Assembly (NCBI GenBank): GCA_024349765.1
Contig: AP026073.1
Coordinates: 6,014,001-6,078,000 of the forward strand
Length of the DNA stretch: 64,000 nt
Origin: Streptomyces nigrescens
GTDB taxonomy: Bacteria; Actinomycetota; Actinomycetes; Streptomycetales; Streptomycetaceae
Direction of reading: 5' to 3'
Positions 2,630 through 12,935 of this stretch are shown here, in pieces. Numbering within the stretch: position 1 is the stretch's first letter; the number at the start of each line of letters is the position of its first letter. The notes under the pieces were generated by a model. The model was not told the DNA's origin, searched no databases, and saw only the letters and a list, made by a program, of their open reading frames with translations. Made by a program: the position numbers and the translations under genes.

Positions 2630-3556
2630 TCAGGGGCGCGGCGGCCGCTGGCAGCGCGGGCAGAAGTAGCTGGAGCGGTTCATCCACGGCCGGCGGCGGA
2701 TCGCCGTACCGCAGCGGCGGCAGGGCTCGTCCTCGCGGCCGTAGGCGTCCAGCGAGCGCTCGAAGTAGCCGGACTCGCCGTTGACGTTGACGTAGAGGCT
2801 GTCGAAGCTGGTGCCGCCGACGGCCAGCGCGGCGCGCATCACGTCCCGTACGTGCCCGAGCAGCTCGGCGGTGCGCGGGCGGGTGAAGGTGGCGGTCGGC
2901 CGCTCGTAGTGCAGCTTGCTGCGCCAGAGCGCCTCGTCGGCGTAGATGTTGCCCACTCCGCTGATCAGGGTCTGGTCGAGCAGCGCCCGCTTGACGGTGG
3001 TCCGGCGGCGGCGCAGCGCGTCGTGGAAGGCGGCGTCGTCGAAGGCCGGGTCGAGCGGGTCGCGGGCGATGTGCGCGATGACGTCGGGCAGTTGGTCGGG
3101 GTCGCCGGGCACGGTGTCGTGCAGCGACAGGCCGCCGAAGGTGCGCTGGTCGACGAAGCGGAGCTCGGTCCCCAGGTCGTCGGCGAACCGCAGCCGGATG
3201 CGCAGGTGCTTCTCGTCCGGCGCGTCGTGCGGCTGGACCAGCAGCTGGCCGCTCATGCCGAGGTGGGCGAGGATCGCCAGGCCGTGGGTCACGTCGGGGG
3301 TGACGAGCGGCGCGATGCCCTCGGCGGCGGTCTGCGCTGCCGGGGTGCCGCCGGTCACCGGGATCCAGAGGTACTTGCCGCGGCGGCGCGCGGTCCCCAG
3401 GCGCAGCCCCGTGAGGCGGGCCGCGAAGTCCTCCGCCCCCGCCGTGTGCCGGCGGATCGCCCGCGGATGCCGCACCTCGACCTCGTCGATGGTGCGGCCG
3501 TCGACCCAGCGCTCCAGTCCACGGCGGACGACCTCGACCTCGGGCAGCTCGGGCAC
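2630..3556 (-). CDS. mutM: Formamidopyrimidine-DNA glycosylase MutM/Fpg
   Basis: This is a bifunctional base-excision-repair enzyme removing oxidised purines such as 8-oxoguanine and nicking the abasic site. The protein is 308 residues, slightly longer than the usual 270-290. It starts MPELPEVE, where Pro2 (after Met removal) is the catalytic nucleophile and Glu3 is essential. 'GRRGKYL'-type sequence ('[11 protein letters not shown]') gives the beta-hairpin Lys, 'LGMSGQLL' the DNA-probing loop, and '[12 protein letters not shown]' the helix-two-turn-helix. The C-terminal zinc finger is C-x2-C-x16-C-x2-C ('CRRCGT' and 'CPRCQ'). It follows rnc on the same strand, but a 20-bp hairpin between them makes read-through less likely. 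Confidence 0.95.
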
Positions 3557-3675
3557 GGCGGACTCCTCGGAACGACGACGGGTGGGAAGGAGGGGAAGAA
3601 CGCGGGGAAGGACGTGGCGGAAGCACTTCGGCGCAAGGTTGCGGCGGAGGGGCTTCGGCGGGCGGGGAAAGACTT

Positions 3676-3720
3676 CTGACCCCGTCCGGGGCGACGCGTG
3701 GTCGCCCCGGACGGGGTCAG
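3676..3720 (-). terminator. Hairpin terminator after rnc
   Basis: This perfect 20-bp stem (3676-3695 and 3701-3720) with a 5-nt loop lies 10 bp after the rnc stop codon. It should end the yceD-rpmF-rnc transcript before mutM. Confidence 0.85.
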
Positions 3721-3730
3721 GAGAGGTGCT

Positions 3731-4600
3731 TCAGTGTGCCGACGACGAGCCGTCGTCGGCGGTGGGAGCCGATCCGTCCGGGCCCGGCGACGCCGCGTCG
3801 CCGGAGGCCGCCGTCTTGGCCGCCTCGTCCGCCGCGGCGCGAATGGCGCGCCACGCGGACTCCGCCGCCTGCTGCTCGGCTTCCTTCTTGCTGCGGCCGG
3901 TGCCGGTGCCGTACGAGACACCACCGACGCGGGCGGCAGCAGTAAAGGTCTTCTCGTGGTCCGGGCCGGTCTCGGTGACCAGGTACTCCGGGACGCCGAG
4001 ACCCTCGGTCGCGGTGAGTTCCTGGAGGCTGGTCTTCCAGTCCAGGCCCGCGCCCAGGCTGGAGGACTTCTCGATGAGCGGGTCGAAGAGCCGGTGCACC
4101 AGCTCGGCGGCCGCGTCGAGACCCTGGTCGAGGTAGACCGCGCCGATCACCGCTTCGAGCGTGTCGGCGAGGATGGAGGCCTTGTCCCGGCCGCCCGTGC
4201 CCTCTTCGCCGCGTCCGAGGCGGATGAAGGCACCGAGGTCGAGGCCGCGCCCCACCTCGGCGAGCGCACGCGAGTTGACCACCGCGGCCCGCAACTTGGC
4301 CAACTGGCCTTCGGGCAGGTCGGGGTGGATGCGGTACAGCGTGTCCGTGACCACCAGGCCGAGCACCGAGTCCCCGAGGAACTCCAGCCGCTCGTTGGTG
4401 GGCAGACCGCCGTTCTCGTATGCGAACGAGCGGTGCGTCAGCGCACGCACCAGAAGGGCGGACTCGAGCTGGTACCCGAGCCGCCCTTCCAGAAGCGTGT
4501 GGGACGAGGCTGTGTCCGCCGGAGTCGTTTCCTCCCCGCGCTTGCGGGATGCCGAATGGGCGTCTTCCGCCTTCTTGGGGCTAGACACAGTGCCTGTCAC
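3731..4600 (-). CDS. rnc: Ribonuclease III (AbsB in Streptomyces)
   Basis: This endonuclease cleaves double-stranded RNA in rRNA maturation and mRNA turnover; the S. coelicolor orthologue AbsB also affects antibiotic production (established). At 289 residues it is longer than E. coli RNase III because of an acidic Ala/Ser/Gly-rich tail. The signature '[14 protein letters not shown]' (about residues 68-81) holds the metal-binding Glu and Asp; '[13 protein letters not shown]' holds the second catalytic Glu. The dsRNA-binding domain follows ('[20 protein letters not shown]' to '[16 protein letters not shown]'). The GTG at 4600 lies 7 bp after the rpmF stop; a second GTG at 4588 is possible. The rpmF-rnc arrangement is conserved in Actinobacteria. 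Confidence 0.95.
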
Positions 4601-9916: not shown

Positions 9917-12877
9917 TCAGCCCTTGTCCAGATACTGCTCCCGTTCCTCGTCCAGCAGGGCGGACAGCGCGATCCGCAGCTCCGGGTAGCCGGTCAGCTC
10001 GGGGTCGTCGCCGACCAGCGCGGTGGCCTCCTCGCGGGCGGCGGCGATGATCTCCTCGTCGTCGATGACCGTGAGCATCCGCAGCGAGGAGCGGACGCCG
10101 GACTGGGCCTGGCCCAGGACGTCGCCCTCGCGCCGCTGTTCCAGGTCGATCCGGGAGAGCTCGAAACCGTCGAGGGTGCCGGCCACCGCGGCGAGCCGGG
10201 CCCGCGCCGGGCTGGCCTCGGGCATCTCGCTGACCAGCAGGCACAGGCCGGGCGCCGATCCACGGCCGACCCGGCCGCGCAGCTGGTGCAGCTGGGAGAC
10301 GCCGAACCGGTCCGCGTCCATGATCACCATGACGGTGGCGTTGGGGACGTTCACCCCGACCTCGATGACCGTCGTCGCGACCAGCACGTCCAGCTCGCCG
10401 GCCGCGAACGAGCGCATCACCTCGTCCTTGTCGTCCGGCGCCATTCTGCCGTGCAGCACTGCCACCCGCAGGCCGGCGAGCGGGCCCTTGGTGAGCTGGT
10501 CGGCGATGTCGAGCACCGCGAGCGGCGGGCGCTTCTCGGCGATGTCCTCCGGCGAACTCGCCGCGGCCGCCGCGTCGTTGCCCCCGGACGCGCCCTTCTT
10601 CCCCGGCTTGGGCGCGTCCTCCTCGTCGCCGATCCGCGGGCAGACCACGTACGCCTGGTGCCCGGCCTCGACCTCTTCGCGGACCCGCTCCCACGTGCGC
10701 GCTAGGAAGTGCGGTTTGTCCTTCGCGGGCACCACGTGGCTGGCGATCGGCGAGCGTCCGGCGGGGAGTTGGTCGAGGACGGAGGTCTCCAGATCGCCGA
10801 AGACGGTCATCGCGACCGTCCGCGGGATCGGGGTCGCGGTCATCACCAACAGGTGCGGCGGCTGTTTGCCCTTGCCGCGCAGGGCGTCGCGCTGCTCGAC
10901 GCCGAAGCGGTGCTGTTCGTCGACGACCACCAGCCCCAGGTCGTGGAACTGCACCTTGTCCTCGATCAGCGCATGCGTGCCGACGACGATGCCGGCCTCG
11001 CCGGTGACCAGGTCGAGCAGCGCCTGCCGGCGGGCCGCGGCGCCCATGGAGCCGGTCAACAGCACCACCTTGGTGCCCTGTTCGGCACCGCCGAGCATCC
11101 CGCCCTCGGCCAGCTCCCCCATCATCTCGGTGATCGAGCGGTGGTGCTGCTGGGCGAGCACCTCGGTGGGCGCCAGCATCGCGGCCTGGCCGCCGCTGTC
11201 GACGACTCCGAGCATGGCGCGCAGCGCGACCATGGTGTTGTGCGTGACGGTGAAGTGGTCGGTCACATAGGCGTGGGAGGGGTGCGCGACGCTGATGCAC
11301 TGGACGGGCTTGCGGCCCACGTGCTCGATCGCGCGGATGGAGCGCCGGAAGCCCGGAGCGTCACCGGCCCCCTCCTCGGGCAGCGCGACATGGACGTCGT
11401 ACCCGCCCGCCCCGGTGTCCTGCAGCTGGGCCGCGCCGCCCAGGGAGCGCACCAGCCAGGCGAGGTCGGCGGCCAGCGGGCCGGACGCGGCGCGGAACAC
11501 GTCCCCGGCGCCGGAAGCCTCTCCCCCGGCGTCCAGCAGACCGCGCAGCACGGCCCGCCGGTCCTTGACGGGGGCGTTGCGGCAGGCGGCCGGCAGGCCG
11601 TCCTCGGGGAGGGACCGGCCCAGGCGGTACGGGTCGAGCGGTCGCTCCCCGCCGTCGTCGAGGTCCACCGGTGTGGCGGGCGCGATGGACCACTTGGGCC
11701 GGCCGTCGGCGCGCAGCAGGTCGGCCCGTAGCTCGCGGGTCGTCAGCACCCGCTCGCCCGTCTCGCGGGATCCGACGATCCACAGGTGCTCGTCGTCGCA
11801 CTCGACGGTGGAGCCGTCCGACAGCACCAGTCGCCACACCTCGCGCTCGCCCTGCGGGAAGACGCCGTCCACCACGGCGCGCTCGCCGCTGGGCACCACC
11901 ACTTCGGTGCCGACGGTCATCTCCCCCATGGGCCGGAAGCCGCTCGGGGTGAGCACCAGGGCGTCCAGCGGCTGGGCCTTGCCGGAGCCGACCTCGCCCT
12001 GGAGGAGGCGGTGCATGGGGTGTTCGGTCGCCAGGTCGTCGAAGATCTCCCGGCTGACCTTCTGCTGGCCTTCGGTGAGCGTGAACGGCAGCTCGGCGTC
12101 GAACGCGTCAAGGATGCCGTCCTTGACCAACTGCCGTGGCACGGCGGGTAGTTGGGTGTCGGTCAGGCGCCTGCGGGCCAGCGCGACCTGCATCACGAAC
12201 GCCTCGTCCCACTTCAGCCGGTCCCGCGCACCGGCGATGTCGGCCTTGCTGTCGGGGCGGTGGATCTTCAGCAGCGCCTCGGTGAGCGGGACCAGCGACC
12301 GGCCCTCGCGCAGTGCCTCGGGAAGCGGGTCGACGGCGTCCTGGGCGCTGGGCAGCACCGCGTCGACCGCCTTGGTGATCTTCCAGGACGCCATCTGCTG
12401 GCAGGCCGGGTAGATCGGGATGAGCTGATTGGCGAAGGCGTCCACGGCGTCGCCGTCGGTGTCGCCGTCCAGGAGCGCGTATTCGGGGTGGGCGAGCTGG
12501 AGTTTGCGGTTGAAGACCGAGACCTTGCCGGCGAACATCGCGCGGCGCCCGGGCAGCAGTTCCTTGTGCGGCTTGTGGATGCCCTTGCCGAAGAAGACGA
12601 GCTGGAGCCGGCCGCTGCCGTCCGTGAGCGTCACTTCCAGGCGCTGTCCCCGGCCGGCGTTGAATTTGTGCACCCGGGCGTCGGCGACCCGGGCGACGAC
12701 CGTGACGTGTTCGTCCAGCGGGAGGTCGGCGAGGCGGGTCAGCTCGCCGCGCTCGGCGTAGCGGCGCGGGTAGTGGTGCAGCAGGTCACCGACCGTGTGC
12801 AGGTCGAGATGCTCGGCCAGCACCTTCGCGGTGGTGCCGCCGAGGATTTTCTTCAGGGGTTCGTCGAGCGCAGCCAC
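9917..12877 (-). CDS. recG: ATP-dependent DNA helicase RecG interrupted by an in-frame intein
   Basis: RecG is a branch-migrating helicase that reverses stalled replication forks and processes Holliday junctions. The frame encodes 986 residues; without the 247-residue intein, 739 remain, normal for RecG. The N-terminal wedge/OB domain includes 'LHHYPRRYAERGELTRLADL'. Walker A is split: 'LLQGEVGSGK' ends at residue 300 and the Thr that completes GKT is residue 548. Then come 'MLAPTEVLAQQH', the DExH-type 'VVVDEQHRFGVEQR', 'MTATPIPRTVAMT', 'VLHGRM', 'TTVIEVGVNVPNAT' and 'QLRGRVGRG'. The GTG at 12877 gives the family start (M)AALDEPLKK. Activity requires protein splicing because ATP binding is destroyed in the precursor. 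The low-complexity insert 'KKGASGGNDAAAAASSPED' is a lineage feature. Confidence 0.95.
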   Translation of the reverse strand: MAALDEPLKKILGGTTAKVLAEHLDLHTVGDLLHHYPRRYAERGELTRLADLPLDEHVTVVARVADARVHKFNAGRGQRLEVTLTDGSGRLQLVFFGKGIHKPHKELLPGRRAMFAGKVSVFNRKLQLAHPEYALLDGDTDGDAVDAFANQLIPIYPACQQMASWKITKAVDAVLPSAQDAVDPLPEALREGRSLVPLTEALLKIHRPDSKADIAGARDRLKWDEAFVMQVALARRRLTDTQLPAVPRQLVKDGILDAFDAELPFTLTEGQQKVSREIFDDLATEHPMHRLLQGEVGSGKAQPLDALVLTPSGFRPMGEMTVGTEVVVPSGERAVVDGVFPQGEREVWRLVLSDGSTVECDDEHLWIVGSRETGERVLTTRELRADLLRADGRPKWSIAPATPVDLDDGGERPLDPYRLGRSLPEDGLPAACRNAPVKDRRAVLRGLLDAGGEASGAGDVFRAASGPLAADLAWLVRSLGGAAQLQDTGAGGYDVHVALPEEGAGDAPGFRRSIRAIEHVGRKPVQCISVAHPSHAYVTDHFTVTHNTMVALRAMLGVVDSGGQAAMLAPTEVLAQQHHRSITEMMGELAEGGMLGGAEQGTKVVLLTGSMGAAARRQALLDLVTGEAGIVVGTHALIEDKVQFHDLGLVVVDEQHRFGVEQRDALRGKGKQPPHLLVMTATPIPRTVAMTVFGDLETSVLDQLPAGRSPIASHVVPAKDKPHFLARTWERVREEVEAGHQAYVVCPRIGDEEDAPKPGKKGASGGNDAAAAASSPEDIAEKRPPLAVLDIADQLTKGPLAGLRVAVLHGRMAPDDKDEVMRSFAAGELDVLVATTVIEVGVNVPNATVMVIMDADRFGVSQLHQLRGRVGRGSAPGLCLLVSEMPEASPARARLAAVAGTLDGFELSRIDLEQRREGDVLGQAQSGVRSSLRMLTVIDDEEIIAAAREEATALVGDDPELTGYPELRIALSALLDEEREQYLDKG
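11237..11977 (-). other. Intein in RecG Walker A, class 3 type, endonuclease decayed
   Basis: This is 247 in-frame codons between Lys300 and Thr548 of RecG. Intein blocks are visible: block A 'AQPLDALVLTPSGFRPMGEM' starting with Ala, not Cys or Ser; block B 'GSTVECDDEHLWIV' with Thr57, His64 and Trp66; block F starting 'PVQCISV' with Cys227; block G 'FTVTHN' with Thr245, His246 and terminal Asn247. The +1 residue is Thr. Ala1 together with Trp at B:12, Cys at F:4 and Thr at G:5 is the published signature of class 3 inteins, which form the branched intermediate on the block F Cys. The middle holds LAGLIDADG-like remnants ('DPYRLGRSLPEDG', 'AVLRGLLDAGGEA'), with the second catalytic acid apparently changed to Gly. 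Confidence 0.9.
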
Positions 12878-12935
12878 GCGTCTATTGCACACCACGCCTC
12901 TGACAATTGCGCCGGTCCCGGCCGCCGGGGCGCCG

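Follow-up and report, generated by a model that had tools for sequence, protein, structure and literature searches.

The recG gene in a 64,000-nucleotide stretch of Streptomyces nigrescens DNA (the window) is interrupted by an insert at the Lys-Thr bond of the RecG Walker A motif. Based on residue signature, phylogeny and patterns of constraint, we consider it highly probable that this insert is a class 3 intein, that it splices by the class 3 route, that the helicase is inactive beforehand, and that the intein's homing endonuclease has decayed.

Class 3 is the rarer intein type, and the window copy is well preserved. RecG is already known as a host, with InBase presumably holding an entry for a Streptomyces RecG ("Sav-RecG Helicase"), and class 3 is the natural assignment; we add the anatomy of the intein, its spread, a series of decay stages and evidence of constraint. 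RecG is also listed among intein-containing proteins in Table 1 of PMC5874633, which gives the same host protein but no class, site or sequence. The available portion of PMC1193525 does not mention a RecG intein, and we found no paper placing a RecG intein in class 3 within the open-license literature, which excludes Tori and Perler 2011.

Intein anatomy and class assignment

Coordinates below are window positions, and all features lie on the minus strand. The intein extends from Ala1 to Asn247 (11237..11977), as delimited by translation, alignment and predicted fold. The original prediction, made from the letters of this DNA, described 247 in-frame codons interrupting the Walker A motif of RecG between GSGK and Thr. 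This description is exact in translation: 247 stop-free residues lie between GEVGSGK and TMVALRAML (preceded by ...LLQ), that is, between the Walker A Lys and Thr. The insert is confirmed to be real. Chance and a misread frame are ruled out, because homologous inserts occupy exactly this codon boundary in 24 of 150 genomes of the genus.

The set of class 3 residues is complete. Residue 1 is Ala, not Cys, Ser or Thr. Within the intein are His64 (block B, position 10, or B:10; 11786..11788), Trp66 (B:12; 11780..11782), Cys227 (F:4; 11297..11299), Thr245 (G:5; 11243..11245) and His246-Asn247 (G:6 and G:7; 11237..11242). The next residue, Thr+1 (G:8, as positions are defined in PMC5222942; 11234..11236), completes the Walker A sequence GSGKT. 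Trp66, Cys227 and Thr245 form the Trp-Cys-Thr (WCT) triplet, and Cys227 and Thr+1 are the expected first and second nucleophiles. A phmmer alignment with the DnaB1 intein of Mycobacterium chimaera (Mch; 6rix) pairs H64 and W66 with H65 and W67, C227 with C124, and T245 with T143, and thus upholds the block positions originally predicted for the triplet. All four M. chimaera residues are named as active-site residues (PMC7664689). All 95 distinct RecG inteins (from 105 loci) share Ala1, His B:10, Trp B:12, Cys F:4, Thr G:5 and His G:6; the final Asn and following Thr were demanded by the intein parser.

In a tree of intein classes, RecG inteins cluster with the crystallized class 3 inteins of Msm and Mch DnaB1 and with viral inteins (support 100/99). 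The predicted structure includes the HINT splicing fold. The class 3 reading in the original prediction is therefore borne out by residue signature and tree, and the predicted fold is consistent with it.

Several observations weigh against this assignment. The class tree is based on 104 columns and has a single class 1 outgroup on a long branch. The Pfam model Intein_splicing (PF14890) gave no match over the organism's own genome, the intein notwithstanding, and a search of the intein by itself against the Pfam and NCBIfam libraries assigned it to no family; a gene annotated automatically as plain RecG therefore conceals it. Also, gp41-1 chains, which belong to class 1 or were engineered from it, score as highly as class 3 chains in both sequence and fold, so the fold does not assign class. 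As for the rows of the tree, L149 and L150 were left out (block B was not located), L165 was trimmed at the wrong His, and L155 was flagged for a one-residue shift; no RecG row is affected.

The gp41-1 scores could suggest that an intein of class 1 or class 2 type had been misread as class 3, but we regard such a misreading as extremely improbable. Class 1 inteins require Cys, Ser or Thr at position 1 (PMC5222942), where every RecG intein has Ala, and the top gp41-1 match, 6riz, is the C1A/F65W/D107C form that was engineered to WCT in PMC7664689. The complete WCT triplet speaks against class 2, which the available text of PMC3196547 reports so far only in KlbA; the host here is RecG.

Distribution, endonuclease decay and signs of homing

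A whole-protein search of the 150 genus genomes, which include the organism's own, gave matches in 49, of which 24 carry the RecG intein at the same codon boundary. Six of the remaining 25 matching genomes were inspected (L033-L038), and all six matches are in PhoH. With an intein-free RecG as query, 147 of the 150 genomes match, and RecG is unbroken through the site in 121, interrupted in 24 and undetermined in 2; 3 have no RecG match. The RecG form is present in at least 14 of 200 genomes in a family sample and at least 8 of 394 in a class sample. In a scan of named genomes, 80 of 161 matches were kept, and all 80 are RecG (73 Streptomyces, 4 Saccharothrix and 3 Actinomadura). The closest named relative among these kept matches is S. 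endophytica HNM0140 (96%). The scan patterns contain VECDDEH and AQPLD, so conservation of Ala1, Cys60 and His64 in that set is partly selected; Trp66, Cys227 and Thr245 lie outside the patterns.

Full-length RecG inteins have 338-341 residues and two LAGLIDADG motifs (of the LLLGDGS and LMDTDGT type), and a profile of 24 RecG inteins matches PI-SceI with an E-value of about 5e-4. In the window copy, residues 113-212 (11342..11641) are the remnant of this homing endonuclease, as indicated by alignment with relatives of 338-339 residues, the PI-SceI profile match, a spanning fold match and relaxed constraint (see below). The Asp of the second LAGLIDADG motif is catalytic. It is replaced in the window copy by Gly151 (11525..11527), giving DAGG versus DTDG in full-length relatives, and the copy is about 90 residues short of the 338-341-residue relatives, neither of which is expected of an active LAGLIDADG endonuclease. 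Among the 24 inteins of the genus sample, 11 retain full length and both acids, 2 retain full length with a substitution of the first acid, and the other 11 are shortened, the window copy being the shortest.

An extein tree of 111 rows contains 28 intact and 53 decayed intein copies (L134, in which both motifs are intact, was counted as intact), together with the 30 best-scoring intein-free recG genes. The window copy belongs to a starred clade of 20 (the window clade) consisting of decayed copies only, and none of the 30 empty genes falls inside it. Within this clade, synonymous distances of intein and extein correlate (Mantel r 0.69, with 0 of 2000 permutations as high), which favors vertical descent. 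The allele occurs in many actinobacteria, and the window insert is its form with a decayed endonuclease.

Some full-length relatives bear signs of recent homing. Comparison of 72 Streptomyces loci in 2556 pairs (without L087 and L095, which are short or long-branched) gave 8 pairs with an intein synonymous divergence below 0.8 of that of the extein. The four strongest low-ratio pairs come from two species groups and are all between full endonuclease copies. For example, between S. muensis (L103) and Streptomyces sp. 15-116A (L116) the synonymous divergence is 0.046 for the inteins (at 3501-4514) and 0.257 for the exteins. Blocks of roughly 40 codons flanking the intein diverge by only 0.04-0.09, a pattern that co-conversion would produce; the block with the last few codons of the N flank is too short for a reading. 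The flank signal is absent from the L103/L144 pair. The reverse holds for L109 and L135, whose exteins are close while their inteins are distant; one of the two copies was therefore replaced or acquired separately.

The nearest outgroup intein (L193, 1501-2574) is inserted at GAGK|T in a very long helicase-like frame from the same taxonomic class. It is the closest non-RecG relative in the tree; its LAGLIDADG motifs look intact, and by eye its host frame resembles SNF2/DarB-like helicases. Viral loci with an AQPLD start (27 fetched and 25 parsed, some of them near-copies) have the intein inserted directly after GK in 21 of the 25 parsed. Both observations agree with the proposal that class 3 inteins originated in phages (PMC3196547) and with the P-loop as a "classic" insertion site (PMC5050341).

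One fixed site offers a natural series comprising empty genes, full endonuclease copies (some recently mobile-looking), copies that have lost catalytic acids, and shortened forms that persist in many species. This series makes the class 3 homing cycle testable in close relatives within one genus.

Constraint, probable splicing and possible regulation

A RecG protein left interrupted at its P-loop should lose constraint. We estimated ratios of nonsynonymous to synonymous divergence (dN/dS) by the Nei-Gojobori method pooled over pairs, with intervals from a codon bootstrap; the pairs are not independent. The extein dN/dS is 0.17 (0.15-0.21) in the window clade of 20 species, all with decayed endonuclease, 0.14 (0.12-0.17) in an intein-free clade of 16, and 0.20 (0.17-0.22) over 30 intein-free genes. 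These values are equally low with and without the intein; the protein is evidently in use, and splicing is therefore very probable.

For the parts of the intein, dN/dS is 0.18 (0.10-0.28) in the N-terminal splicing half, 0.42 (0.18-0.78) in the C-terminal half and 0.59 (0.47-0.71) in the remnant of the endonuclease. The first splicing half is therefore constrained like the host, the second less clearly so, and the remnant is relaxed though not free. Equal constraint on both splicing halves and the host had been expected; the looser C-terminal half, with its wide interval, does not clearly conform and tells against the reading favored here. It could be taken, together with the decayed endonuclease, to mean that the insert is a splicing-dead class 3 relic, which would make this recG a pseudogene or leave its product to function as a fusion. 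Such relics have a precedent in a pseudogene, a class 3-like intein without its block F Cys (PMC3196547). We nonetheless judge this explanation very improbable, given that the catalytic residues are kept in all 95 distinct sequences and that all 77 of the 105 occupied loci that were checked have helicase motifs II, III and VI. A working fusion would be unlikely with the Walker A Lys and Thr separated, and the pseudogene reading was rejected on extein constraint, which resembles that of intein-free RecG.

We infer the splicing chemistry, the inactivity of the precursor and the reason for retention as follows. Cys227 would attack the Lys(-1)-Ala1 bond to form the block F branched intermediate specific to this class, and the N-extein would then be transferred to Thr+1. 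Cyclization of Asn247 would release the intein, and an acyl shift would yield native RecG with an intact GSGKT. Before splicing, the ATP site would be split and the helicase inactive. That the ATPase is off until splicing, as originally proposed, can soundly be argued: the precursor should lack this activity because the Walker A Lys and Thr are separated, and loss of ATPase is cited for a RadA P-loop intein (PMC6195587). The allele formerly spread by means of its LAGLIDADG homing endonuclease. In the window species and 19 relatives, which form one clade, the endonuclease has decayed and the intein is inherited with recG, presumably retained because only precise loss would spare RecG.

Regulation of RecG splicing is a matter of speculation. 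A conditional switch, in which oxidation of Cys227 delays splicing and so times RecG activation to stress, is improbable. Its possible partner is Cys60, which lies near block B (11798..11800), is conserved in 91 of 95 distinct inteins, and may be a redox partner; it is kept in 23 of 24 genus sequences and 18 of 20 members of the window clade. A precedent exists in the class 3 P-loop intein of Msm DnaB1, which H2O2 inhibits by way of a disulfide between Cys48 and Cys118 (PMC6195587). However, the position of Cys60 differs from that of Msm Cys48, Ala replaces Cys60 in two window-clade members, and gp41-1 has a Cys at the same position, which suggests a structural role. It is improbable, too, that the intein has been domesticated since the death of its endonuclease, such that splicing restrains a repair helicase after translation until Cys227 is reduced, with the endonuclease remnant kept as a folding or sensing module. 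In favor of the remnant being kept rather than drifting away is its dN/dS of less than 1. If true, fork and Holliday-junction processing in streptomycetes would be under the control of a switch timed by stress.

The precursor frame of the host gene has 992 codons (9917..12895). It consists of an N-extein (11978..12895), whose C-terminal residues are the Walker A GSGK (11978-11989), and a C-extein with the helicase motifs (9917..11236), as identified by translation and, for the latter, also by family search. The frame matches NF008167, the NCBIfam RecG equivalog, in two stretches with 1120.9 bits (cut-off 995). It is the single RecG-grade match in the organism's 9.33-Mb genome, the runner-up being a partial match with 39% identity. 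Translation starts at GTG 12895 or 12877, a choice without effect on the intein. The predicted ligated product of 739 residues is obtained with the start at 12877, whereas the first GTG, at 12895, gives 745 residues. The chromosomal setting of recG is ordinary, with matches to rsmD, coaD, a DAK2/YloV protein and thiL among the neighboring frames.

Comparison with known inteins

Compared with LAGLIDADG inteins of the PI-SceI type, the window copy lacks the second-motif Asp and about 90 residues of the domain, and its splicing class differs. Phage inteins hosted by helicases, terminases and further P-loop proteins (PMC5050341) resemble the RecG intein in their AQPLD start and THN|T/S end, and their hosts differ from RecG. 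Among 324 matching phage records, of whatever class, the best place is below 60% identity in all.

Two unusual arrangements were noticed among related inteins. A viral contig (L149:352-3222) encodes what by eye looks like a large terminase, with a Walker A that seems to be interrupted by a pair of inteins separated by three residues (WGGG | intein | CGK | intein | TFAA), of which the first terminates in Lys-Asn rather than His-Asn. At L187:1501-2388, and also in L190 and L191, a related intein lies between VEGN and TNQTGS (TND in L190 and L191), with no P-loop at the site, and the host protein is unusual.

Actinobacterial PhoH inteins are homologous to the RecG intein, with 37-45% identity over the N part. 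W, C and T are present in 29 of the 29 used in the tree, and, like the RecG intein, they end in THN before Thr (in one case Ser). They differ in their site, which is MRGR|(A/S)(Q/M)P rather than the Walker A Lys-Thr bond, and they form separate branches in the tree. PhoH inteins with the same signature (L036, L194-L213) occur in several families, in at least 21 of the 394 class-sample genomes versus at least 8 for the RecG form.

The DnaB1 class 3 inteins of Mycobacterium (Msm, 6bs8; Mch, 6rix) share the WCT triplet and the HINT fold with the RecG intein, at 27-31% identity over aligned residues. They likewise lack a class 1 nucleophile (PMC5222942) and are likewise inserted in a P-loop (PMC6195587). 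The RecG intein differs in its host, in carrying a 100-residue endonuclease remnant, and in having Thr at the +1 position, where Msm DnaB1 has Ser (PMC6195587). If splicing of RecG should prove conditional, this intein would, like that of mycobacterial DnaB, be a class 3 switch controlling a helicase of replication or repair.
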